Under the pieces are notes generated by a model. The model was given only the letters and a program-made list of their open reading frames with translations, made no database searches and was not told the DNA's origin. Positions 1,749-13,197 of a stretch of DNA of 64,000 bases are shown here, piece after piece. Position numbers and translations under genes: made by a program. The number at the start of each line of letters is the position of its first letter. Position 1 is the stretch's first letter. The stretch is from NCBI RefSeq assembly GCF_900177545.1, contig NZ_FXBQ01000001.1:930001-994000 (forward strand), written 5' to 3'. This DNA is from Maritimibacter sp. HL-12 (lineage in GTDB: Bacteria; Pseudomonadota; Alphaproteobacteria; Rhodobacterales; Rhodobacteraceae).

Positions 1749-1832
1749 GCGGGGCGGACCAAGTCTAGCTGTTCAGAATTCGAGGTCCAGCTGCATGGTG
1801 TCTCTGCGGAGGATGACCAATTCTGAGCGAAG

Positions 1833-1878
1833 TGGTGCCCGGGGGCGGAATCGAACCACCGACACGAGGATTTTCAAT
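1833..1878 (-). repeat. Left attachment site: truncated tRNA-Phe 3' end
   Basis: This is identical over 46 bases to 13123-13168 and covers the CCA end, acceptor strand, T arm and anticodon region of tRNA-Phe on the minus strand. Sequence diverges at 1879, before the anticodon arm is complete, so this copy cannot give a functional tRNA. It marks the distal att site left by island integration. Confidence 0.92.
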
Positions 1879-2009
1879 TGGTCTGTTGATCCGCGCGCAC
1901 TGTCTCAGGATCGCTCAACCCGTAACGTAGCCGGTTGAAAACCTTGATCTTTGCGCTTGGCAGATCGTCTCTACCCGTCTCGCGCCGGAGCATTCAAGCA
2001 CGCTGCTCC

Positions 2010-2030
2010 TGCTACCCCAGTGATACCCAC
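2010..2030 (+). repeat. Left arm-type repeat (candidate integrase/excisionase site)
   Basis: A 21-base element beginning TGCTACCC and ending TGATACCCAC matches 13036-13056 at 19 of 21 positions in the same orientation. Each copy sits a short distance inside its island end, as expected for arm-type sites bound by the integrase N-terminal domain. Function is inferred from position only. Confidence 0.5.
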
Positions 2031-2097
2031 GGACGCCGAAGACCACACGGGTATCTCGATCCAGTGCATCCCGATCCAAAACCCTGCAAACCCTCTA

Positions 2098-2134
2098 GGG
2101 TTGTCCCTGACGCGGCTCATCCGCCCATCTTATC
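2098..2134 (+). promoter_or_regulatory. Candidate integrase promoter, shared motif
   Basis: GGGTTGTCCCTGACGCG at 2098-2114 contains a -35-like CTGACG (2107-2112), followed after 16 bp by a -10-like CTTATC (2129-2134). The integrase ATG at 2143 lies only 8 bases beyond the -10 box with no clear Shine-Dalgarno sequence, so the transcript may be leaderless or nearly so. The same layout with identical spacing recurs at 7961-7997. Confidence 0.45.
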
Positions 2135-2142
2135 ATGGGCTT

Positions 2143-3342
2143 ATGAAACGCAAACTCACCACCAAGTTCATCGAGGGGCAGAAGCCCAGCCCGTCGAAAC
2201 GTCTCGATTTCCGGGACGAGTTGATGCCGGGCCTCGTCCTGCGCATCAGCACGTCCGGCACCAAGACGTTCTGCCTGCACAAGCGCATCAACGGCAAGAT
2301 GCGTCGCCTGACCATCGGACGGTTCGGCGTCGTGTCGCTGGCCGAGGCGCGCGAACGGGTGCGACAGGTTCTCTACGAAATCGAGACGGGCCGGTTCGAA
2401 GATCGCACGGGCGTCGAGGCCGAAACCAAACCCACGCTGGGCGACGTGATTCCTGACTACATCGAGAAGCACGCGAAGGTTCACAACCGCGACTGGAAGC
2501 GCAAGGAAGCGCTGCTGGCGAAGTTCACGCCCCTGCACGGCAAACGGATCGACGAGATCAAGCGCGCCGATGTCGTGAAAGCCTGCGACGTGATCCACAA
2601 GTCCGCGCCGGTCAGCGCGAACCGGGCGCTGGCCCACCTCAAGCACCTCATGGGCTGGTGCGTCGAGCGCGGCATGATCGATGCCTCCCCCATCGCCGGG
2701 ATGAAACCGCTGTCCAAGGAACGTTCGCGCGAGCGTGTCCTGACCGACGACGAGCTGGGCGCGCTGTGGACGGCCTGTGACGCCGAAGGCTATCCTTTCG
2801 GGGATTGCATGAAACTGTTGATCCTCAGCGGCCAGAGGCGCGCCGAGGTCGCCGAGATGCGCTGGTCGGAACTCGACCTCGAAAAACGCCTGTGGACCCT
2901 GCCTTCGCAGCGCGCCAAGAACGGCAGGCAGCACACGGTGCCGATCACCGACGCGATGCTGGACGTTCTGCGCAGGGTGCCGAGGTTCCTCGGCTCGGAC
3001 TACGTGTTCACGACCACCGGCAAATCGCCCGTGTCGGGGTTCGGTCGCCTGAAAGACCGGCTAGACAAGGCGCTGCCCGAAGGCACGGAACCGTGGATCA
3101 TCCACGACCTGCGCCGCACGATGTCCACGAACATGGCGATGCTGCGCGTCCCCCAGCCCGTGACCGAGGCGCTGCTGAACCACAAAACGGGTGTGGTCTC
3201 GGGCGTTGCTGCTATCTACAATGTCTATTCATACGCGGACGAGAAGCGCGAGGCGCTCGGCGCTTGGTCGCAACATGTGATGAACTTGGTCAGGTCAAGC
3301 AATGACGCCACCGAAACCGAAATTGCGCAAGCGTCAGGTTGA
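2143..3342 (+). CDS. int: Tyrosine-type site-specific integrase (P4 family)
   Basis: The protein has 399 residues from ATG 2143. An N-terminal DUF4102-type domain (about residues 1-85: RLTIGRFGVVSLAEARERVRQ) is followed by a core-binding domain and a C-terminal catalytic domain. Catalytic residues are visible as the first Arg in SGQRRAEV, the HxxR motif in HDLRRT, and the Tyr in AAIYNVYSY near the C-terminus. It should integrate and excise the island at tRNA-Phe. The frame is open further upstream, to about 1951, but that part has no integrase character and overlaps the arm repeat, so ATG 2143 is preferred. The 3' end overlaps the next gene by 41 bp, suggesting coupled expression. Confidence 0.93.
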   Translation: MKRKLTTKFIEGQKPSPSKRLDFRDELMPGLVLRISTSGTKTFCLHKRINGKMRRLTIGRFGVVSLAEARERVRQVLYEIETGRFEDRTGVEAETKPTLGDVIPDYIEKHAKVHNRDWKRKEALLAKFTPLHGKRIDEIKRADVVKACDVIHKSAPVSANRALAHLKHLMGWCVERGMIDASPIAGMKPLSKERSRERVLTDDELGALWTACDAEGYPFGDCMKLLILSGQRRAEVAEMRWSELDLEKRLWTLPSQRAKNGRQHTVPITDAMLDVLRRVPRFLGSDYVFTTTGKSPVSGFGRLKDRLDKALPEGTEPWIIHDLRRTMSTNMAMLRVPQPVTEALLNHKTGVVSGVAAIYNVYSYADEKREALGAWSQHVMNLVRSSNDATETEIAQASG

Positions 3343-3847
3343 CCTCCTGCTTCTCAGCATCATCCGCGCCTACGAACATCCCGACAGGAAAAGCGAGACC
3401 GAACGTCTGGCAATCGTGCGCGAGGCCCTATTCGGCGAAAAGCGTGGGCGTGGTCGAACGGCCGCATTCGATGATCTGGCGCTATTCAAGGTCGTTGATG
3501 AGGTGCGCAAGCGTGAGCTTGATGGTCTTCGACGAGCCATCGCGAAGAAGAACGAAAAGCCTCAAACGCCCGAATGGGAAACTGAAATCGCGCGTGACCC
3601 CATGAAAGTTCGCGAGGCCGCACGGCGTTTCGCGGAACTGGCCGGAAAAAGCGACAACGTGAGCGATGACGCTGTTGAGCATCGCCTGCGCAGGAAGGCC
3701 GGTGCCCAGTTGACGACACGGGAAATGGCCGAAATCGAGTCTCTGTTCGATCCTGACGCGCCCCATACCCGAACGATGATTGCCGTTCTCGAATTGCTCG
3801 AGAACCTCGGCGTTCAGTCTGAAGTGATCTGGGACGAAAACACCTGA
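3302..3847 (+). CDS. Hypothetical island protein, 181 aa
   Basis: The start overlaps the end of the integrase gene in another frame. The product is charged and probably cytoplasmic. It is rich in Arg, Lys and Glu, is predicted helical, and has no signal peptide, membrane segment or cysteine motif. A family is not recognised. Its position between integrase and the AlpA-like genes, and the translational overlap with int, suggest a role in element maintenance or regulation, but nothing in the sequence proves that. Confidence 0.7.
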   Translation: MTPPKPKLRKRQVDLLLLSIIRAYEHPDRKSETERLAIVREALFGEKRGRGRTAAFDDLALFKVVDEVRKRELDGLRRAIAKKNEKPQTPEWETEIARDPMKVREAARRFAELAGKSDNVSDDAVEHRLRRKAGAQLTTREMAEIESLFDPDAPHTRTMIAVLELLENLGVQSEVIWDENT

Positions 3848-3898
3848 TTTGTGTCCCGCGCTTCGGCGCATCGCCCCTGCTAATCTTCGACTGCATGC

Positions 3899-3918
3899 AC
3901 CCCTTTGGGGTCGACCCC
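3899..3918. promoter_or_regulatory. Alternating palindromes upstream of the AlpA-like gene
   Basis: ACCCCTTTGGGGT (3899-3911) overlaps the perfect 12-base palindrome GGGGTCGACCCC (3907-3918), so the middle GGGGT can pair with either side. It lies 25 bases upstream of the ATG at 3944 and is a plausible operator or mRNA switch for the AlpA-like genes. Confidence 0.35.
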
Positions 3919-3943
3919 TTCATCCAACCGATGGAGGACCATC

Positions 3944-4171
3944 ATGAATATAAACGACGGTCGCAAGACCTTGGCCACACGCGCTGATCTCAAGCGCCTT
4001 GGCATCAACGTGAGCAACACGACCCTGCTGCGCTGGGAGGCCCGTGGGCGCTTTCCTCGGCGTATCAGGATGGCCGGGACCAGCGTTGCGTGGTTCCTGT
4101 CCGAGATCGAGGACTGGCTCGCTGAACGCGCCGCCGAGCGCGCCCGCACGCATTACGCAGACGCGGGGTAG
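3944..4171 (+). CDS. AlpA/MerR-like small DNA-binding protein
   Basis: The protein has 75 residues from ATG 3944, chosen because GGAGGA lies 5 bases upstream. It has the AlpA/excisionase layout: a helix-turn-helix (TRADLKRLGINVSNTTLLRWEARGRFPRR) followed by a beta wing and a W-x-x-x-E-x-x-x-W-L end (WFLSEIEDWLAE). AlpA proteins of P4-like elements act as excisionase or activate integrase. It lies in a plus-strand run with a second small protein of similar design directly downstream. Confidence 0.75.
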   Translation: MNINDGRKTLATRADLKRLGINVSNTTLLRWEARGRFPRRIRMAGTSVAWFLSEIEDWLAERAAERARTHYADAG

Positions 4172-4177
4172 CCAGCC

Positions 4178-4384
4178 ATGAAGATCATCATGAAAAGGGG
4201 CTATTGCCCAAAATGCCTCGAAGAACTGGGCGTGCTGAACAGCCCAGATCAACTGAGGGTGCTCGAAGCCCAAGGCAAGTTTCCTCGCCGGGTCGCGCCT
4301 CTCATGTGGGACGCGGACGAGGTCGACGACTGGCTTGAGCGCTTCACGGGCATCCGTCCGCAGAGGCCGGTCTGCGACTGCTGA
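4178..4384 (+). CDS. Second AlpA-like small protein
   Basis: This 68-residue protein starts 6 bp after the preceding gene. It shares the wing signature with its neighbour (GKFPRRVAPLMWDADEVDDWLERF), but the N-terminal half (GYCPKCLEELGVLNSPDQLRVLEAQ) carries a CxxC pair and a shortened helix-turn-helix. Two more cysteines end the protein (VCDC), so a metal-stabilised fold is possible. An internal ATG at 4190 is an alternative start. It is likely a regulator or recombination directionality factor partner; the exact role is unknown. Confidence 0.6.
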   Translation: MKIIMKRGYCPKCLEELGVLNSPDQLRVLEAQGKFPRRVAPLMWDADEVDDWLERFTGIRPQRPVCDC

Positions 4385-4465
4385 CAACATCATCGGTGGG
4401 GCGAAAAGCGCCCTGCCACCCCCCGACATATCGCGGCCTGAAACAACGCGCGTTTCGCGCGACCA

Positions 4466-5455
4466 GTGCTGCTGCACCTAATGAATGGATACATCATGAC
4501 AGCCGAAATCGATGATTTCTTGACGCCAACACTTTGGGAAGACGGATGGCCAGATCGCATGACCGTCAAAGATCAGGACGAGTTCCTTTTCGCGATCTGG
4601 GGACCACAGGTGGGCGACGGCGAGAAGACTTATGCCTCGCTGTGCTTCCGCAAAAAGGGTTCAACCAGAATGGTTCAGGAGTTTGTGCAGATTGACGACG
4701 ACATGTGTGTGGTCGACCTATTGCGCCACTACAGTCGGCATGAATGGGATCAATATTACAGCCCAAACACATACACGCGGAAAGATCGGAAAATCACCAG
4801 CGTTTCCCAAGAATGCTGGTTTGCCTGGTGCGACGTGGACAAAGCCGACCCGTTCGCATTCAAGCCGAAGCCGTCAGTTGTCTGGGAGACGTCGCCGGGT
4901 CGAACGCAGGCTCTGTGGTTCTGGGACCGGCCGCACATGCCCGGGCTGGCGTCAGCCTATTCGAAGGCGCTCACATATCGTCATGGCGGCGACAAGGGTG
5001 GCAGCGCGCCGAACAAGCTGCTTCGGTTGCCGGGGTCATTCAACCACAAGCCGGATTACGACAAGCCGTTCATTCCCCTGTTGAAATTCGACTCAAGCCC
5101 GATCAAGACCCGCCCCAAGCTACTGTCGGGTCACCATGGCGTTGGCGCGACAAAACCCGACGCGCTGGCCATGAACCCCCATGCACATGACCGCCTCGCC
5201 GTCCTGAGGAAATATCGACCCAAGCTGGACACCTCAACGCGCCACCTGATCCGGCACAACCGCGTGAAGGCACCGGATCGATCCAGCAGGATCTTCGCGA
5301 TGGTCGCTGGCCTGCACGAGGCAGGCGCAACACTCGACGAGATCGCCAGCGTGATCTGGTCCAGTCCGTATTTCCGCGACAAGTACGGCGACGACCAGAA
5401 CGCGCTGGAAACCGAAATATCGCGCATCATCGCACGAGTGGGGGCAGCGCAATGA
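4466..5455 (+). CDS. RepB-type primase-like replication protein
   Basis: The protein has up to 329 residues. GTG 4466, ATG 4481 and ATG 4496 are all possible starts; none has a strong Shine-Dalgarno sequence, and ATG 4496 (TAEIDDFL) removes an unlikely leader. The middle carries the pattern of archaeo-eukaryotic-type primases of plasmids and satellites: WFAWCDVDKADPF, then SPGRTQALWFWDR, then GGDKGGSAPNKLLRLPGSFNHKP. The LRLPGSFNHK strand is typical of RepB-like primases. The 3' end overlaps the RepA-like ATPase gene by 4 bp. Together they form a self-replication module, so the element probably replicates after excision. Confidence 0.75.
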   Translation: MLLHLMNGYIMTAEIDDFLTPTLWEDGWPDRMTVKDQDEFLFAIWGPQVGDGEKTYASLCFRKKGSTRMVQEFVQIDDDMCVVDLLRHYSRHEWDQYYSPNTYTRKDRKITSVSQECWFAWCDVDKADPFAFKPKPSVVWETSPGRTQALWFWDRPHMPGLASAYSKALTYRHGGDKGGSAPNKLLRLPGSFNHKPDYDKPFIPLLKFDSSPIKTRPKLLSGHHGVGATKPDALAMNPHAHDRLAVLRKYRPKLDTSTRHLIRHNRVKAPDRSSRIFAMVAGLHEAGATLDEIASVIWSSPYFRDKYGDDQNALETEISRIIARVGAAQ

Positions 5456-6438
5456 CCTCCAAGAAGAAGGAACTGTTTGTCGATCTGAACACCATCGATC
5501 CGAAGGAGGTCGAATGGCTCTGGGAACCGTTCATCCCGTTCAGCATGATAACTATTATGGAGGGCGACCCCGGCGTGGGTAAATCGTTCCTCGCCATGCA
5601 GCTTGCCGCGCAGATCAGCATCGGTGGCGAACTGCCCGAGGGGCAGAAGCTGGATCGCGGTCGCGTGCTCTACCTCAGCGCTGAGGATGACGCGGCCTAC
5701 ACGATCAGGCCACGCATCGATGCGATGGGGGGCGATCCAACGCGCATTCGCGTGCAGGGCGATTTCCTGTCCCTCGACGAGAAGGGGCTAAACGCCCTCA
5801 TGCGCGAGGTGAGGCGCAAGCCACCGGACCTGCTGATCCTCGACCCCTTGTTCGCCTACGTGCCGAGTGGGCAGGACATGTATAAGCCGAACGTGATCCG
5901 GCAGCTTCTGTCGTTCCTCAAGGACATCGCCGAAACCGGCGAGACGGCGGTGCTGATCGTCCGGCACCTGACCAAGGCCAAGCACGACAAGGCCATCTAT
6001 CGTGGTGGTGGGTCGATGGACGTGATCGGCGCGGCACGGTCGGCATTTCTGGTGTGCGAACACCCGAACGACAGTTCGACCAAGCTGGTGGTTCATATCA
6101 AGCACAACATCGCGAAGCGTGGTCAGACCCAGAGCTACGAGATTTACGCCGAGGACGGCGGCATGGCGACGTTGAACTGGCTGGGGCCGTCAGACATCAC
6201 CATCGATGACCTGATTTCGTCCGAGGGTGGCACGCCCAAGATGTCGGCGCTCGACGAGGCAATCCAGTTCCTGCGCGTGTTCCTCAAGAACGGTCCAGAG
6301 CCGACGACCAAGGTCGAGAAGGAAGCTGCCGCGCGCGACATTTCCGAGAAGACGCTGGAACGCGCCCGGCGATCCTTGGGCGTGGTGTCGAAGAAGAAGG
6401 GAAAAAGCTGGGTGCTGTCGCTGCCAGACGAAGAATGA
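5452..6438 (+). CDS. RepA-like AAA ATPase/helicase
   Basis: The 328-residue protein has Walker A GDPGVGKS at about residues 39-46 and Walker B LLILDPLF at about 124-131. It has the RecA/AAA_25 fold of RepA-type hexameric helicases (DLLILDP, then AVLIVRHLTKAK and GGGSMDVIGAARSAF). A C-terminal winged-helix-like segment (AAARDISEKTLERARRSLGV) is common in satellite and integrative-element RepA proteins. The ATG overlaps the primase stop. It should unwind the replication origin, which probably lies directly downstream in the inverted-repeat region. Confidence 0.85.
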   Translation: MTSKKKELFVDLNTIDPKEVEWLWEPFIPFSMITIMEGDPGVGKSFLAMQLAAQISIGGELPEGQKLDRGRVLYLSAEDDAAYTIRPRIDAMGGDPTRIRVQGDFLSLDEKGLNALMREVRRKPPDLLILDPLFAYVPSGQDMYKPNVIRQLLSFLKDIAETGETAVLIVRHLTKAKHDKAIYRGGGSMDVIGAARSAFLVCEHPNDSSTKLVVHIKHNIAKRGQTQSYEIYAEDGGMATLNWLGPSDITIDDLISSEGGTPKMSALDEAIQFLRVFLKNGPEPTTKVEKEAAARDISEKTLERARRSLGVVSKKKGKSWVLSLPDEE

Positions 6439-6832
6439 CCACAGGTAGGATATGAAGTGCGCCAAGAACGCCAACAGCGCCATCGTGTTTGTTGGCGCAC
6501 TTCGAACCCTCAACATCGCCACGAACATGCATGACGGCCTTGGCGTTCTTGACGGTCTTGAAATCGGCTGGGGGCCGAAAATCTCGGCAGTATGTATGAC
6601 CCCTTGTCCGTCCACGAGGCGCGCGCCGATAAAAAAACGCCTCCCCCCACCCCCCTGTGGTCGCCCTGTGACAGCGCCGCGCGGAACGCCTCGGACCGAC
6701 CCGTTGACTATCTATCAGTCTGTCGGATGCGAGCCGGACCCAAATTGTCGTGCCAAATCATGCGGTCCGCAGTCGCGCTGGGTTTCGGTATCGCGCGCCG
6801 GGTTCCACTCGGGTGGCAAACTGCTCGGGCGG
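6439..6832. other. Intergenic region with competing stem-loops; candidate origin
   Basis: No convincing gene is seen in this 394-bp stretch. GAAGTGCGCCAA (6454-6465) is a perfect inverted repeat of TTGGCGCACTTC (6492-6503). The overlapping segment CAAGAACGCCAA (6463-6474) is also perfectly complementary to TTGGCGTTCTTG (6540-6551), so two stems compete for one strand. A C-rich tract (6640-6660) and an A-run (6631-6637) follow. Position next to the primase/RepA pair suggests an origin or replication-control site. Confidence 0.45.
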
Positions 6833-7063
6833 TCATTCTTGCACCCATCCCTTGCGATGGTAATGGCGCAGCACGATGGCGCGGTTGAACAGGGGGAAGC
6901 CGATCCACAGGCCGTTGAGCGTGAAGAACGACAAGATGGCCCAGAGGAACATGCCCTTGAACAGGTAATAGAAGGGGCCGAACAGCAGGCACCACAGACG
7001 GTGCCAGTTGCCCAGAATGATTTTCGTCTGGCCATTGAAGGCCCATGTCGCGCGTATAGTCAT
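6833..7063 (-). CDS. Small membrane protein, 76 aa
   Basis: ATG 7063 is preceded by GAGGAAA at a good distance, which decides the start over longer readings. The product has a short N-terminal segment and one or two hydrophobic stretches (WCLLFGPFYYLFKGMFLWAILSFF, roughly residues 24-47), then an amphipathic end (NRAIVLRHYHRKGW). The layout recalls the DUF2628 family of small membrane proteins of unknown function. A related-looking short protein lies at 12606-12803. It might act as an effector or superinfection factor, but that is speculation. Confidence 0.65.
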   Translation of the reverse strand: MTIRATWAFNGQTKIILGNWHRLWCLLFGPFYYLFKGMFLWAILSFFTLNGLWIGFPLFNRAIVLRHYHRKGWVQE

Positions 7064-7331
7064 TGCCGATTTCCTCGCTGGCTGCTTGCAATGCCAGCGC
7101 AATAAGATCGGGGACCATCGCCCGTCAGGGTAATTCCCGCGCGGACTATGGAGACCACAGGGGTAGCCGTGTCCGTGCAGATGCCGGGATGATCGCAATG
7201 AGCGCGGCGCACAGCGCGCCAGCCGGTTTTGCGACGGGATCACCATGCGCGAAGCACGCCTCGGCGCTCCTGGCTCAATACAACGCCGCCGCGCGCGCGT
7301 TTCGCTGTCGATGCTCGGGGTTTGTTGCAGG

Positions 7332-7715
7332 TTATTCCGAGTTGCACACCGGCAGGCCGCCATGCGTCTCGACATGCTCCCAGATCAGCCGTCGCTCGGC
7401 ATAGGCGATGTAGGGGTGCAGGATTTCCGGCTTGGGGTCGATGCCGTCTGGCAGGTGCACCGAAACGAACAGGCCAGCCGTGTCGCCATCGAACACGCCA
7501 TGGAACGTGACGCCCCCTGCGTGGCCCTTCTGCCCGGTGGTCGCTGACCTGTGGAACGTCCGTATCCTGTGGCGTATCCCCTTCGCACCCCATGTCCGTC
7601 CGATGTAGACGGTGCTTCCCGGTTCGCCGCGCGCAATCAGATACACGCCTGCACGATCAGGCAGGCTCGCACGGTCGGTCCAAGCGACGGGATGGGACAG
7701 CGCCAGTTCCACCAA
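7332..7715 (-). CDS. GIY-YIG-like nuclease domain protein
   Basis: The core reads GVYLIARG then VYIGRTWGAKGIRHRIRTF, matching the GIY-YIG fold (GVY and YIG strands plus the catalytic Arg position), and ends in a conserved-looking region with Glu (YAERRLIWEHV). TTG 7715 and GTG 7712 are the only start codons near the natural domain boundary. Coding-like sequence continues in frame upstream to a stop at about 7791 (HPDHQSIARALADRGL), so the true start may be missing or non-standard. GIY-YIG enzymes cut DNA in repair, homing and restriction. The partner or target here is unknown. Confidence 0.7.
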   Translation of the reverse strand: MVELALSHPVAWTDRASLPDRAGVYLIARGEPGSTVYIGRTWGAKGIRHRIRTFHRSATTGQKGHAGGVTFHGVFDGDTAGLFVSVHLPDGIDPKPEILHPYIAYAERRLIWEHVETHGGLPVCNSE

Positions 7716-7960
7716 ACCCCGATCTGCGAGCGCCCTCGCAATTGACTGGTGATCGGGGTGTTGGAAATCCGCTCTGACACGGACCCTGTGCCTTTAGCCG
7801 GGCGGCCTGTTGTATAACACAGGCACCCCGACCATAGGTCAAAGGCGTTCAGCCGGTTGCCCGGCCTAGTCAGAGAGGGGTTTCCACGCCCCAACACGGC
7901 TGCGTCTGCCGCGTCGAGATCAGTCATAGCAGCAGATCGAGAAAAGCTAAAGATGTTCTG

Positions 7961-7997
7961 GGGTTATCCCTGACACGCTGCCAGCCTTCGTCTTATC
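7961..7997 (+). promoter_or_regulatory. Candidate promoter sharing the integrase motif
   Basis: GGGTTATCCCTGACACG (7961-7977) includes a -35-like CTGACA (7970-7975), then 16 bp, then CTTATC (7992-7997), the same architecture and spacing as at 2098-2134. The rest of the 7716-8026 gap shows no supported gene. An AGGAG at about 8016 and the ATG at 8027 follow. Confidence 0.45.
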
Positions 7998-8026
7998 GAT
8001 CTGCATCAGCAACTTAGGAGATCGAC

Positions 8027-8266
8027 ATGACCGACATTGTGACGCTCAAGGCCATCTGCGACGAACTCAAGATTGACCCACGCGAGGCCCGTGAACGCCT
8101 GCGCGCCGCAGCCAGCGACGCCAAGGCGAACCCTGAACTGGCGAAGGCGCGGAAGCCGCGCACACCGTGGCAGTGGGTGAAGGGGTCCGCCGCCGAGAAG
8201 GAAGCCCGAAAAGCTCTTTCCAATTGTGCCCCAGTAGCAGAAGACGAAGGCAAAAAGAGCAAGTGA
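8027..8266 (+). CDS. Hypothetical island protein, 79 aa
   Basis: The ATG is preceded by AGGAG. The N-terminal half (TLKAICDELKIDPREARERLRAAA) looks like a short helical DNA-binding or helix-turn-helix-like segment. The rest is basic and rich in Lys and Ala (WQWVKGSAAEKEARKAL), typical of small nucleoid-like or phage regulatory proteins. No family is recognised. It shares a promoter design with the integrase and is followed 4 bp later by another small gene. Confidence 0.65.
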   Translation: MTDIVTLKAICDELKIDPREARERLRAAASDAKANPELAKARKPRTPWQWVKGSAAEKEARKALSNCAPVAEDEGKKSK

Positions 8267-8270
8267 ACCA

Positions 8271-8627
8271 ATGAGAAAAACTGAAAAACCGAAAGGGCTT
8301 TTGCCGCCTGCTCCTGCTCAGGATGCGTCACGGAAGACTTACGGAGAATGGCAGATCACGGACACCGTTTCCAGTACACGAAAAAACCTGTTCAGCATTG
8401 ACCCGCACAGCGGCTATCATGTTGGGACAATTATTTCGGGCAGCAGAAGCAAGCTAGATCGTTTCGAGAGGAGCCTCACACTTATTCGATCTGCACCGGA
8501 CATGCTCTATGTTTTGGAGGCCGTGGCCGCGTCTTTAAGAGCGGGTGAGGAGATTGACACAGCCGAGCTATTGTCGTTGATCGACAATGTATTGGAGCGG
8601 GTTGCCTCACCATCTGGTGAAGGTTGA
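8271..8627 (+). CDS. Hypothetical island protein, 118 aa
   Basis: It begins 4 bp after the preceding gene, so it is probably co-transcribed. The middle contains GYHVGTIISGSRSKLDRFERSL and the end contains SAPDMLYVLEAVAASL, a pattern seen in small phage and element proteins of unknown function. Its last 121 bp overlap the 3' end of the convergent DUF4338 gene on the other strand. Both reading frames look real, so one of the two C-termini has probably been created by extension into the other gene. Confidence 0.6.
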   Translation: MRKTEKPKGLLPPAPAQDASRKTYGEWQITDTVSSTRKNLFSIDPHSGYHVGTIISGSRSKLDRFERSLTLIRSAPDMLYVLEAVAASLRAGEEIDTAELLSLIDNVLERVASPSGEG

Positions 8628-10639
8628 GCCGCAAGCCCGCCTTTAACGGCACGGAGCTTCAGACTCTCACTGATGGAATGCGGCCCGAGATTTTTTGTTG
8701 CATCCAAGATGCCCGGTTTGTCGATTCGTGGACTTAGCCAACGTTCGATCCAGCAGTTTGAGATGCTTCGAAGTGTAGACGAAGTTCTTCTTTTAGACCG
8801 CGCGCCAAACCCAAGCATATCGTCTTTCGCGTCTTTATAAAGCTCGCACCCATACACTTTACGTCCATGCGACTGCTTCAAGAGAGAGTCGTCATTGATG
8901 CCCAAAAGGTTTAGGCCCTCGCGAATTTGGCGCATCCGCGGACTACTACCTTCGCCAAAAACACTATTGATCCTTCGACGACCATAGACGGCTGTACCCA
9001 ACTGGCGCATGAGTGTCACCGTCTGCTCGCTCAGATGCGTGATGCTTACTCCTGTTCCGCTTTCCAGCTTTTTCCAGACCACATCAGCGCTGAGACGCTC
9101 AAACCGTTCGCGCCGCAGCGCAAGACTCGAATACTGATTACTACCAACACCGTATAGGCTGGTTGTGGTGATGAGCTTAAGATCTGAACTTCGAACTATC
9201 GAGCGCCCCGCAATTTGGGATGCGATCTCACTGACTTGATTTGAGTACCGTTTACCATAGAGCTTTCGCGCCTCGCGTGAGGCCATCGCGAGTGCAACCA
9301 GCTTACCACCAAGTAGAGTATTGTAAGGCGCGATTGCACCACACACAGCCAAGTCGGCCACCTCAGTCGCTAGGTGCCGTTTCTTTATCTCATTGAGCGC
9401 AACACGAATGGCGCTCTGCCCATTTTTGTCAGTGAATGCGAGATAAGTAGCAGCCGCTGGCTCCTTCCGTATTCCCAATTGGACAAGGGTTTGCACAGCT
9501 TTGAGTAAGGGGGCTAGCTGTTCAGCCCTCTTTTTTCGGAATAGCCCTGTTTCTGAAAGGCGTCGCCACCCGTCGTCACCGATTTCTTCTTTCTTGTAGC
9601 CTCTAATATCGATTGGCTCATTGTCTTCGGTCGACGACAAGTCTCGTTTTCTTTGTGCGGCGCCTTCTGCAGCGCCACGCTCCAAACGGATCAATGTGTC
9701 AAAAGTCGGATGCACGATCTCATCGTCTGTGATCAGATCATCGTGGCGGATATCGTTGATTGCGTTCTCAAGCGCAATTAACAGGCGTTTTCCCACACGC
9801 GCCGCTTCATACTCACCGGCCATAATCTTTTCAGAAAGCGCATCAACCTGCCAGCCGATCCATCTATCCCGGCTGCCCAAATTTGCAGTTGGACTTGCGA
9901 GCATGGCAATGCCTATAACGGGGTGGTTTTTTCGTGCCCCGTTTCGCAATAGGAATCTCTGCGTTCGTCCCGGTAGGGGGTTGTATTCAAGGGACCACGT
10001 GTATCGAAAGTAGCGCCAGATGTCTTGAAGCTTGAATCCAGTGTACTCGCACCTTGCATCGGTCGAGCACTCTTGCAAGACAGGCCGAACGATTTTTCCC
10101 AACGCGTCCATTCGGCCTTCCCGCGTTTGCGAGTTCTGCGCCTGTTGCAGCGCAGACGCCAAATCCGCTCCATTATCAATCAAAGAAAGAATTGAAACCT
10201 TTTTCCCTTCAAAGGGCCGTTCACGCTCCATTCGCTTCATAAAATCTTGAACCGAAGCCTCGCCAAGCTGGCGATTACTTGCAATTTCAAGGCCGGCTCG
10301 AATTCGTTTTTTGGCGTGATCAACGGTTTCGCCTTCAAGTGGAGAAAACGAGGCAGACTCCACGGTAATTCCGAAATCATTGAAATCGATTTTCCAACCT
10401 TGCGCGATAAGGTCGGATAGGATTGAGTAAGCTACGGCCATACGCAGGTTGCCACATGCGTCCGTATCCGTCGCGAGCATACTGAATTTATCTGCAAAGC
10501 GCCGGAACTCTCTTGCTCTTTCCTCGAAATCAATATTCTTAGTATCTTCAACTTTCTGTTGGATACGCTTTCTTCCTCCTTCAGATATCTTCGAAGGGAA
10601 GAAGTAGCTCGGGCCATTGGTTTTTTCTTGATTTTTCAT
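8507..10639 (-). CDS. DUF4338 (DruA-like) protein of the cargo operon
   Basis: The protein has about 710 residues from ATG 10639; a GTG at 10669 is an alternative. Roughly the first 200 residues are helical and unassigned. A DUF4338-type region follows: HPVIGIAMLASP and RDRWIGW (about 240-264), then LLGGKLVALAMAS (about 442), IASQIAGR and TTTSLYGVGSNQY (about 491-503), then WIERWLSPR near the end. DUF4338 is the family of DruA, a component of the Druantia anti-phage systems. No Druantia helicase (DruE) is present. The tail after WLSPR is low-complexity and overlaps the opposite gene. It lies downstream of the GHKL ATPase gene, and the two probably form one system. Confidence 0.8.
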   Translation of the reverse strand: MKNQEKTNGPSYFFPSKISEGGRKRIQQKVEDTKNIDFEERAREFRRFADKFSMLATDTDACGNLRMAVAYSILSDLIAQGWKIDFNDFGITVESASFSPLEGETVDHAKKRIRAGLEIASNRQLGEASVQDFMKRMERERPFEGKKVSILSLIDNGADLASALQQAQNSQTREGRMDALGKIVRPVLQECSTDARCEYTGFKLQDIWRYFRYTWSLEYNPLPGRTQRFLLRNGARKNHPVIGIAMLASPTANLGSRDRWIGWQVDALSEKIMAGEYEAARVGKRLLIALENAINDIRHDDLITDDEIVHPTFDTLIRLERGAAEGAAQRKRDLSSTEDNEPIDIRGYKKEEIGDDGWRRLSETGLFRKKRAEQLAPLLKAVQTLVQLGIRKEPAAATYLAFTDKNGQSAIRVALNEIKKRHLATEVADLAVCGAIAPYNTLLGGKLVALAMASREARKLYGKRYSNQVSEIASQIAGRSIVRSSDLKLITTTSLYGVGSNQYSSLALRRERFERLSADVVWKKLESGTGVSITHLSEQTVTLMRQLGTAVYGRRRINSVFGEGSSPRMRQIREGLNLLGINDDSLLKQSHGRKVYGCELYKDAKDDMLGFGARSKRRTSSTLRSISNCWIERWLSPRIDKPGILDATKNLGPHSISESLKLRAVKGGLAAQPSPDGEATRSNTLSINDNSSAVSISSPALKDAATASKT

Positions 10640-10661
10640 GTGGCGTTCATAACAGAATGCA

Positions 10662-10681
10662 CGGGCCACCTAAATGGCCCG
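10662..10681 (-). promoter_or_regulatory. Intergenic hairpin between the two cargo genes
   Basis: CGGGCCA and TGGCCCG (7-bp stem, 6-base loop) lie between the ATPase stop (10703) and the DUF4338 start (10639). There is no T-run, so a role in mRNA processing or in setting the protein ratio is more likely than full termination. Confidence 0.4.
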
Positions 10682-10702
10682 CGCTGCATAGTGAAGGAAA
10701 AC

Positions 10703-12517
10703 TTATTCTGCGGCGATGTTGTCGTCTTCGCTGTCCACAACATCTTCGTCGTGACCGAAGCGATGCAGAACGTCGAGGGCGACTTCCAGTCTTTCAGACC
10801 ATGCAATCTTTTCCACATGGTAAAAGTTCGACTTGTCCTGATTGCCCAGGGCATCGAGTTCAGCTTCGCCCACTGAGAAGAGCATTACCTCAAGGCCAGC
10901 GCGCAGAAACCGGTTCGCGGCAGCCGACGCATAAAGATCGGTGTAGAAACGGTGTGACATATTGATTTCGAGCACCTTCATCGCGCCGCGCTGAATGACC
11001 CTGTAAAACGGAGCATTAGGATGACTTGCGAACTCTACCTTATACGGGTGCTTCGCTTCCTCTTCTTGCGCCTCATTCCGAACCGTCTCCTCGGGGCGTT
11101 TCTGCTCCTTTGCTTTCTGCTTGACGTACTGTTCGAATTGCTCCCGTGCCTTGGCTTCACGCTCAGCCGAAGTGCCACCAGCGCGCTTGCGCCGGAATTT
11201 CTCGCTTTCCTTCATCGAAGCTTCAGACGCTCGATCTTTCTCGGGGTCCTCGGGCTTTGAGGCATCGGCTTTCTGCATTGCAGACACCTCTTTACGTAGA
11301 GTGCGGATGACACGCTCCACGCCCGCGTCCTGCAGCAAATCCCAGATCCGGTCGGACATGACCACGCCTTGCTTTGAATTCGCAATCGTGAATTCTTCAT
11401 CAAGCTCGGCTGGAAAGTCGATCTCAAGCGCCCAATAGCGGTCATCGTTTCGGAACTTTTCTAATCCCCGCCAAGGCGTGCGCTCAACCACGTCGATCTG
11501 GCGTCCCATACGGCACACAATTACGCCACGATGATCATTCGCTACCTTGAAGCGGTTGTTGGAGTTCCCGTGCTGAGCATCTTTATCTTTGTCCCTAGAA
11601 AAGAAGCGATGGGGGAACAGCGCATACCGGATAGCGATCTTGACCTTCTTGTCTGGGTTGCGCTTGGACTTCACTTCAATTTCGGCTGGCTCCAACGCTT
11701 TCGCACGATCTTCGTCTTCATCGAAGTAGCGGAAACCGGGTGTGAGGAAGAGCGGGTCAAGCGGCTCAATGGAGGTGCCATCAAACTTTAGACCGACTTG
11801 CTGGAGGTAGTTCCGAAACATCACCCCGAAGTGCTGCAGGAGGTTGTCGCGCATCCCCTTTGTGGTCTTCCACTTGATCCGGTCCATTTTTTCCCACAGC
11901 ACGATGGTTCCGTGCGTGAGTTTGCCGCCGGGCATGTGTTCCGAAATATGTTCCATGACCCATTTCGGTGGTTCGGTGCCCTCTACTTCGTCGGGCATGC
12001 GCACGGTATCCGTATTGTCCGTATATTTTCCTGCAGCGATGTCATCGAGGTCGACGGTAAGAGACCGCCAGTTTCCGCCCTCTGTGATCGAGAAAATTGA
12101 GTAGCGACGGGCTTGGTTAACGGATGCGCTAGGCAAGCCGAAACCAAAGCGCCCGAAGCCACTCCGGTTCTCTTCATTGTGACGATGAGTGCCACCCCAC
12201 GCGGCAGCCGGCTGCAACATTCCTTTAGGCATGCCATGACCGTCATCGATCACGGCGAGTGCGTCGGGCGTAGCGGTGCTCTTGCCACTATACCCAAGCG
12301 CTATGCACACTTGCGTCGCTCCAGCTTCGATTGAGTTGTCGATCAACTCGTCGAGTGCGGTACCAGTGTGTTTGTAGTGAGTGTTCCGCATACTTTCGAC
12401 AAAGGCCGTGCCGACGGCGAAAGTGTACTTGAAACCCTTTGCCGAAAGGCTCTCGGCATAAGCTTTCTGCTTGTCGAGATCAGATTTCGGGGCTTCAATC
12501 TTTGCTTCGATAGTCAT
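10703..12517 (-). CDS. GHKL (Hsp90/MORC-like) ATPase of the cargo operon
   Basis: The protein has 604 residues from ATG 12517, with AGGA just upstream. The Bergerat nucleotide-binding fold is complete: N-box ALDELIDNS (about 54-62), G1 box DDGHGM (91-96) and G2 box GRFGFGLPSAS (122-132). A second, S5-like domain follows. Near 440-495 there is a long charged, probably coiled-coil segment rich in Lys and Glu, then a C-terminal domain (YKVEFASHPNAPFYRVIQ). MORC, Hsp90 and GyrB-type ATPases use ATP binding to clamp a dimer, often on DNA. The following gene encodes a DUF4338 protein, an arrangement I cannot match to a named defence system. Confidence 0.88.
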   Translation of the reverse strand: MTIEAKIEAPKSDLDKQKAYAESLSAKGFKYTFAVGTAFVESMRNTHYKHTGTALDELIDNSIEAGATQVCIALGYSGKSTATPDALAVIDDGHGMPKGMLQPAAAWGGTHRHNEENRSGFGRFGFGLPSASVNQARRYSIFSITEGGNWRSLTVDLDDIAAGKYTDNTDTVRMPDEVEGTEPPKWVMEHISEHMPGGKLTHGTIVLWEKMDRIKWKTTKGMRDNLLQHFGVMFRNYLQQVGLKFDGTSIEPLDPLFLTPGFRYFDEDEDRAKALEPAEIEVKSKRNPDKKVKIAIRYALFPHRFFSRDKDKDAQHGNSNNRFKVANDHRGVIVCRMGRQIDVVERTPWRGLEKFRNDDRYWALEIDFPAELDEEFTIANSKQGVVMSDRIWDLLQDAGVERVIRTLRKEVSAMQKADASKPEDPEKDRASEASMKESEKFRRKRAGGTSAEREAKAREQFEQYVKQKAKEQKRPEETVRNEAQEEEAKHPYKVEFASHPNAPFYRVIQRGAMKVLEINMSHRFYTDLYASAAANRFLRAGLEVMLFSVGEAELDALGNQDKSNFYHVEKIAWSERLEVALDVLHRFGHDEDVVDSEDDNIAAE

Positions 12518-12605
12518 GATATGCTGTCCTAAGCTTGTGCAGCCACTGTTCGGCCGCGTTTCAGGTTGGGCGCGTGCCCGGACAACCCGGACACGCCAAG
12601 TCGCC

Positions 12606-12803
12606 TTACGCGACGAACACTTCCAGATGATCGAAAACGATTTCGATCAGATCGCCACCAATCCATACATAACGGATCAGCAACTGCCGGAACACAAAAA
12701 AGCGCCCGAAGCCATAATGGCCTTCGAACGCGGTCTGATGCGCCAGTTGGACGAAAAGGTATGCGGTATCGGGGCCGCAAATCCCCATCATGCTGAACAA
12801 CAT
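12606..12803 (-). CDS. Small hydrophobic protein, 65 aa
   Basis: ATG 12803 is chosen because GGAGG lies 5 bases upstream; an in-frame ATG at 12815 lacks such a site. The product is aromatic and hydrophobic (FGRFFVFRQLLIRYVWIGGDLIEIVFDHLEVFVA) and may be a single-pass or peripheral membrane protein. It lies upstream of the GHKL ATPase gene on the same strand with an 88-bp gap, so it may be the first gene of that operon. No family is recognised. Confidence 0.5.
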   Translation of the reverse strand: MLFSMMGICGPDTAYLFVQLAHQTAFEGHYGFGRFFVFRQLLIRYVWIGGDLIEIVFDHLEVFVA

Positions 12804-13122
12804 GCCAGCCTCCATATGGTTTCAACCAACGGAGGCCCACCAGCTCTAGGTGACCTTCTCTGTCCGCCTTCATTCTGCAGTCGCTATGACCGCGTTGATC
12901 CGTCAGACCTCCGGTGCGAATAACATCTGCGCATCACTTGAGCATTTCAAGCCCCCTCGGAAAGAAAATTTCTACTCCCTTGGTCTGGGCGTTCCTTTTA
13001 CGTGCGCCGAGCATCAGTCAGCAGACCGTCTACAGTGCTACCCAAATGATACCCACACCAACCTGCGCGGCCTCACGAGACCGGAAATCATTGGCTAAAA
13101 AATTGATTTAATTGAGTTTTAA
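12804..13122. other. Non-coding island end next to tRNA-Phe
   Basis: No gene is seen in these 319 bp. The stretch contains the right arm-type repeat (13036-13056) and becomes AT-rich immediately before the attachment site (13091-13121). It probably carries the promoter of the leftward small gene and the cargo operon, but no convincing -35/-10 pair stands out. Confidence 0.5.
13036..13056 (+). repeat. Right arm-type repeat
   Basis: This is the partner of 2010-2030, matching 19 of 21 bases, in the same orientation, 67 bp inside the tRNA-Phe end of the island. Both copies contain two CTACCC/ATACCC-like half units. It is a candidate integrase arm site. Confidence 0.5.
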
Positions 13123-13197
13123 TGGTGCCCGGGGGCGGAATCGAACCACCGACACGAGGATTTTCAATCCACTGCTCTACCCCTGAGCTACCCGGGC
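13123..13197 (-). tRNA. tRNA-Phe (GAA)
   Basis: The minus strand folds as a complete tRNA: acceptor GCCCGGG with CCCGGGC, D arm GCTCAGGGGTAGAGC, anticodon loop TTGAAAA with anticodon GAA, T arm GGTTCGATTCC, and an encoded CCA end at 13123-13125. The anticodon stem has one T-T mismatch. The 3' half (13123-13168) is duplicated at the far end of the island, so it is the integration target. The yacG end lies about 80 bp away on the same strand. Confidence 0.96.

Follow-up and report, generated by a model that had tools for sequence, protein, structure and literature searches.

The window analyzed here, a 64,000-nucleotide stretch of the Maritimibacter sp. HL-12 genome, contains an 11.3-kb island located at a tRNA-Phe gene and flanked by two direct repeats of 46 bp, identical to each other, at 1833-1878 and 13123-13168. 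The features of the island, in window coordinates, are the following.

1833..1878, no strand: left attachment repeat, 46 bp, which duplicates the 3' portion of tRNA-Phe exactly
1951..3342, plus strand: tyrosine integrase (Pfam)
3905..4171, plus strand: AlpA-type excisionase/regulator
4466..5455, plus strand: RepB-type primase of the element
5452..6438, plus strand: AAA_25 replicative-helicase-like ATPase of the element
7332..7715, minus strand: 127-aa protein, possibly GIY-YIG (weak)
8271..8627, plus strand: small convergent gene, 118 aa, with a 121-bp overlap with the druA 3' end
8507..10669, minus strand: gene for long-form DruA (DUF4338), with 720 aa if started at GTG 10669 and 710 aa if started at ATG 10639
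10703..12517, minus strand: GHKL (MORC-like) ATPase gene, 604 aa, with a Bergerat ATP-binding domain, a transducer and a mostly helical C-terminal part
12515..12625, minus strand: conserved leader immediately 5' of the ATPase start, in which stem-loops are predicted
12606..12815, minus strand: ORF of 69 aa that precedes the ATPase gene and is open in 5/5 close loci
13123..13197, minus strand: tRNA-Phe (GAA), the insertion site, with the right repeat (13123-13168) inside

With an integrase, attachment repeats and replication genes of its own, the island has the makeup of a tRNA-integrated satellite-like element. GC content is 0.51-0.54 across the cargo, against about 0.64-0.67 immediately to the right of the tRNA, and the right flank is matched in five of six same-genus genomes, where the tRNA match starts at query positions 418-424 (window 13117-13123) and the island side is unmatched in each case. 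Together with the perfect repeats around the tRNA-Phe insertion site, these data uphold the original prediction that the two genes form the cargo of a tRNA-Phe island. An IMG/VR contig (L034) aligns with nearly the entire element (window 1832-12831, except about 4423-5153), and a related unit at locus L031 also adjoins tRNA-Phe, with different neighbors. Within the first 14 kb, the tRNA is the only Rfam match that reaches the gathering score. In the same-genus genome G1124, the repeat recurs as a perfect copy of 49 bp (C2:307356-307404) at a distance of 32.7 kb from the tRNA-Phe flank (C2:340050), which suggests a different element in the same tRNA-Phe hotspot. The 127-aa protein had been read as a GIY-YIG protein; the gene is part of the element, and the label attached to it is weak, with a PADLOC UzuA match at 3e-4 and no Pfam family at E ≤ 1.

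The two cargo genes are adjacent, lie on the same strand and are both intact, with 604 and, as originally described, about 710 residues. The latter length is plausible because, with the ATG start at 10639, the two genes would be 63 nt apart, much as at loci L032 and L033 (64 and 63 nt). A GC-rich inverted repeat (window 10660-10690) is located between the two genes, close to the DruA GTG start.

The predicted complete Bergerat fold of the ATPase was recovered by Pfam (HATPase_c_3, E 2.9e-17), and its ATP-binding motifs are invariant, with E57, D60, N61, D91, G93, M96, G122, G125, G127, K382 and Q383 present in 10/10 rows of alignment A2. The protein also has a transducer (S5) domain with a conserved lysine, K382 (SKQ). 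N-box residues are only nearly invariant in the 11-row alignment A4, because the listed second ATPase ORF of L096 starts past the N-box. Within the S5 domain, residues 331-341 fit 10/11 positions of the GhXhhpXXRhl motif, as defined in the available text of PMC2292703, in a by-eye reading of A2; the second ATPases of plasmids L037 and L038 fit it in full, and the others do not fit fully. Sequence comparison with solved structures (hmmsearch against PDB) placed MORC2 first (8.8e-11), followed by MutL (5.9e-5). The structural model (pLDDT 75.8, pTM 0.63) has MORC3 as its top match (Z 22.1, rmsd 3.9, 309 aligned, residues 26-415), and MORC4 (Z 21.0) and SMCHD1 (20.5) rank above Hsp90 (18.4) and MutL (16.8), so that the modeled fold is most like that of eukaryotic MORC ATPases. 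At E ≤ 1, Pfam reports HATPase families only, with no nuclease domain and no C-terminal DUF4263. Assignment as a full-length MzaB was rejected (87 bits, where the NCBIfam cut-off is 850, and a match confined to residues 40-259), as was assignment as a full-length MutL (32.2 bits against an NCBIfam cut-off of 180, N-terminal part only). The P. versutus ATPase is 516 aa long, with a C-terminus shorter than that of the window protein. Across 385 genomes of the class, the ATPase is matched in 93 at E ≤ 0.001, mostly through short N-terminal GHKL regions, and a near-full-length match, the window's aside, is found in G259 only.

The DUF4338-like region of the second protein was likewise verified, with matches to the Pfam DruA family (PF14236, E 2.1e-28, residues 427-616) and to the PADLOC long DruA model (PDLC00001, E 1.2e-187, residues 39-676); NCBIfam gave no match. 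The short DruA of plasmid Druantia loci can be aligned with it only around residues 188-283 and 426-651; compared with this short version, the long form therefore has an extra N-terminal part as well as an insertion. The structural model (pLDDT 76.4, pTM 0.71) has a predicted GNAT-like core split by a helical insertion, plus an N-terminal extension. The 50 rows listed by VIA for this model are GNAT-type or GNAT-fold entries by title, a few of them assigned to what we take to be the GNAT fold, with Z 6.2-8.4, where a Z near 8 is middling on the tool's own scale. Foldseek returned no PDB match under 1e-3, and a solved relative by sequence was discarded, the best hit (E 0.039) being judged chance. 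The model weakly resembles GNAT acyltransferases. Its conserved CGA..PY....GGKL stretch sits after a predicted strand and before a helix, which is the place where GNATs bind CoA. Residue N450 is invariant in alignment A1 (12 rows) and not in A3 (10 rows). DUF4338 is named a GNAT domain in the available text of PMC10853773. The accessible portions of the open-licence Druantia literature yielded no function for DruA, and DruA as a whole word is absent from PMC13192584; further literature was drawn on in its available parts (PMC12458937, PMC8565338, PMC8011034 and PMC12774648).

Homologs of the 118-aa convergent gene occupy the same position, with the same overlap of the druA end, in the other five window-clade loci (L031, L032, L033, L034 and L079). 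Its pN is 0.04-0.36 and its pS 0.40-0.87 over 95 codons, overlap with druA included, and its only match is a weak one to PHROG. Upstream of the ATPase gene, the leader stem-loops comprise 28 predicted pairs, with compensatory change in 2 (5 sequences). The 69-aa ORF has no Pfam match, is open on the opposite strand too, and shows a pS of only 0.02-0.46, with pN > pS in one comparison (window-L034). The low synonymous change points to DNA-level constraint and leaves its coding status uncertain; with the open opposite strand and the excess of pN, it is not claimed here as a protein.

A check of the co-occurrence of both families revealed that the pair recurs well outside the window locus, on mobile elements. 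A GHKL gene lies directly upstream, on the same strand, in 13 of the 25 long-DruA loci placed on a tree: the window, L031-L034, plasmids L036-L038, genomes L079 (with a decayed GHKL gene) and L084, and virus contigs L096, L097 and L099. Eleven of the other 12 loci were labeled as a second context, in which the long DruA is either joined to Ssp-type genes or close to them; the remaining locus is cut off. On this quick 25-row tree, in which G779 is labeled by length only, L084 has a long branch, six fused rows entered whole and THAF30 is omitted as a near-twin, the GHKL label requires 2 changes against a shuffled mean of 8.7, and the Ssp label 3 against 8.4.

Full-length long DruA is present in 2/394 genomes of the family (the window's own and G526), 4/398 of the phylum (own, G836, G779 and G805) and 2/385 of the class (own and G259), with four further genomes in each set having partial matches, mostly to short DruA. 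An adjacent GHKL gene accompanies the full-length DruA in G526, G836 (decayed) and G259; G805 has SspG/H-like genes nearby, and G779 a long ORF at a contig edge. Judging by a contig of matching length and content, G526 and G776, the genome of L033, are probably one and the same. Thirteen plasmid records match DruA, 12 of them inspected and THAF30 judged from two matches side by side; 11 are of the long form, with a GHKL gene in 4, Ssp-type genes in 6 and a record end cutting 1. Among seven virus-contig loci with long DruA, four have the GHKL gene and three Ssp-type genes. Public phage records contained no DruA match, and partial GHKL matches in two.

The association is one-way, from long DruA to GHKL. 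Distant GHKL loci (L085-L090) lack DruA in the stretch in 6/6 cases, as does L104, and an adjacent long DruA is found in at least 4 of 55 ATPase-matching plasmid records. Among these relatives, L085-L088 and L104 have PAPS-reductase-like and other conserved genes around them, in clusters that we take to resemble Dnd-type modification loci, and L089 and L090 lie near what is presumably a Vsr-like gene. On plasmids L037 and L038, a small gene on the opposite strand separates two GHKL genes, and a further opposite-strand gene overlaps the end of druA. At L095, L098, L100, L042 and L081 (virus contigs, a plasmid and a genome), long DruA is found within large ORFs with SspG- and SspH-like genes downstream, some matches being weak, and the L100 ORF includes SspF similarity. 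On archaeal plasmids L039-L041, long DruA lies between a same-strand SspFGH-like module and a divergently oriented cluster that includes a match to DruE.

Protein distances of DruA and the GHKL ATPase are strongly correlated (Mantel r 0.94 over 12 loci and 0.77 over 8 divergent loci, p 2e-4), an in-step divergence that is also expected from mere co-inheritance. Across five window-clade copies, pN is 0.01-0.11 and pS 0.21-0.82 for the GHKL gene, and pN is 0.04-0.29 and pS 0.34-0.87 for druA. The five intact copies of the pair are under purifying selection.

Druantia's large helicase, DruE, had been reported as absent, and this holds: none is found in the island, and none in the window genome (G000, 99.91% complete) at E ≤ 0.001, so that DruE as an unlinked partner inside this genome was discarded. 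No DruE was seen in the locus stretches of the window clade, its absence beside L031 and L032 being only partly seen because those stretches end soon after the pair, and no match was found in the L033 genome (G776, G526), G259, the Roseivivax plasmid or the L034 contig; G836 has a 22-bit fragment only. DruE does share a cluster with the pair at 4 of the 13 loci. In P. versutus it is the next gene (2052 aa), and in Leisingera it lies about 1 kb on (2094 aa), with one opposite-strand gene between; PADLOC DruE1 matches them at E = 0 (1430 and 1528 bits), and a NERD gene follows DruE in both (in Leisingera by annotation and phmmer). The other two cases, called by phmmer against the P. versutus DruE, are L096/L101, with an upstream DruE-like ORF of 1851 aa and a PD-(D/E)XK nuclease gene, and L099, with a DruE-like ORF 4.3 kb downstream that is open at the locus end. 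DruB, DruC and DruD have no PADLOC match among four ORFs scanned, namely the ATPase gene and three at 7332-8627, and P. putida DruB-D were dismissed as hidden GHKL proteins, with no HATPase found by Pfam at E ≤ 0.05.

The pair is thus a tRNA-Phe island cargo that recurs and is maintained by selection, and we interpret it, with a probability of about 0.6, as a mobile, two-gene, helicase-free, Druantia-related module against invaders, its defensive role being suggested by context. This reading draws on the recurrence and in-step divergence of the pair, the purifying selection, the DruE and SspFGH contexts, the structural comparisons of both proteins and the VcSduA precedent. Counting against it are the middling DruA structure scores and the empty Foldseek search, the decayed GHKL gene of G836 beside an open DruA, the one-way association, and the finding that the window pair encodes no nuclease. 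Alternatively, the pair could do the sensing for a complete Druantia-like system, with a DruE-type helicase provided in trans by the host, by another element or by a helper phage. The clusters shared with DruE at 4/13 pair loci are consistent with this, as are DruE-family matches elsewhere in the host assemblies of L031 (G774, best 7.5e-84) and L032 (G775, best 7.5e-131), obtained with a model that also matches 12/14 control genomes, probably via other helicases. Such a helicase has no match, however, in the genomes of the window, L033 and G259, and the match in G836 is a fragment, making this reading unlikely.

Service to the element itself, through excision, replication or helper-phage interference, as opposed to portable defence, would agree with the surroundings of the pair, a satellite-like element that also encodes an integrase, AlpA, a primase and an AAA ATPase and that aligns over nearly its whole length with the IMG/VR contig. 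Yet tblastn finds none of these four element genes at L033 or on plasmids L036-L038, and relatives of the pair occur in other virus contigs and on plasmids, so that we regard this role, too, as improbable. Decay would account for the Roseivivax plasmid, which has two ATPases and DruA, no DruE on the plasmid and an IS30 gene downstream, and for locus L079 (G836), where the GHKL gene has decayed at 10072-11446 to ORFs of 359 and 102 aa, with DruA and the convergent gene still open. A Druantia remnant on its way to decay after the loss of DruE is nevertheless very unlikely, because five copies from the window clade are intact and subject to purifying selection; the convergent gene is conserved as well.

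Under the preferred reading of a helicase-free anti-invader module, the MORC-type GHKL ATPase is probably a dimeric, ATP-operated DNA clamp. Its fold and motifs suggest that an ATP-driven dimer would close round incoming or replicating foreign DNA, and the constant gene order and linkage suggest that the clamped state would recruit or activate DruA, with the resulting complex blocking the invader; that phages would be blocked is suggested by genomic context. In lineages with DruE and a nuclease, the block may proceed via helicase-driven DNA processing. In the helicase-free window lineage, the block might speculatively be exerted by the clamp itself, through compaction or silencing of the kind that eukaryotic MORCs perform, and/or by DruA acyl transfer onto a DNA or protein target. 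A bolder and doubtful version is that of a self-sufficient two-protein immunity, in which a MORC clamp would trap foreign DNA and drive a GNAT-fold DruA to acylate DNA or a bound protein, silencing it without helicase or nuclease as a prokaryotic counterpart of eukaryotic MORC silencing.

If right, our interpretation joins bacterial MORC ATPases with Druantia. MORC and Druantia, as whole words, were not found together in any paper of the open-licence literature, which, mostly at the level of titles and abstract openings, also offered no description of a GHKL-DruA pair. Bacterial MORC ATPases are the proposed source of eukaryotic MORC proteins in the available text of PMC2292703, and the two-gene helicase-free version could provide a small unit for probing both the role of DruA and DNA silencing by bacterial MORCs.

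The available text of Iyer et al. 2008 (PMC2292703) places bacterial MORC relatives in restriction-type operons. The window pair has in common with these MORC/paraMORC operons a GHKL and S5 ATPase, a mobile restriction-type context and an SFII helicase near some relatives; it differs in having DruA as partner, with no helicase, nuclease or methylase beside it, and no DruA-type partner is recognizable under any name among the MORC operons of that text. VcSduA, a paraMORC3-type Shedu protein combining GHKL and nuclease, protects against a phage according to the accessible part of PMC12137116, and likewise places a GHKL ATPase with a part in phage defence on a mobile island. It is, however, a single protein with a fused DUF4263 nuclease, whereas Pfam detects no nuclease domain in the window ATPase, and Shedu membership was accordingly rejected. 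Dnd/Ssp FGH systems share the DruA/DUF4338 domain, also in its long form, and the available text of PMC10853773 describes DUF4338 fused to DndF; sister long-DruA loci sit with SspFGH, and these systems have SspF/DndF, SspG and SspH where the window pair has a GHKL ATPase. With MZA, the common feature is the N-terminal GHKL region of the ATPase, which resembles MzaB (PADLOC 1.9e-17), but no other MZA model matched among five ORFs scanned.

Druantia type I consists of DruABCDE. The pair shares with it a DruA homolog, and some relatives of the pair carry a DruE matching PADLOC DruE1; in contrast to type I, the window DruA is long, with an N-terminal extension and an insertion, a MORC-like ATPase stands in place of DruB-D, and both the element and the genome are without DruE. 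The original prediction did not recognize the pair as a named system, and no HMM set examined (PADLOC, NCBIfam) assigns both genes to one system, with PADLOC reporting DruA for one and partial MzaB for the other. What it overlooked is the tie to Druantia: given the full-length PADLOC match to long DruA and the presence of DruE at 4/13 pair loci, the pair is better named a helicase-free Druantia-related variant.
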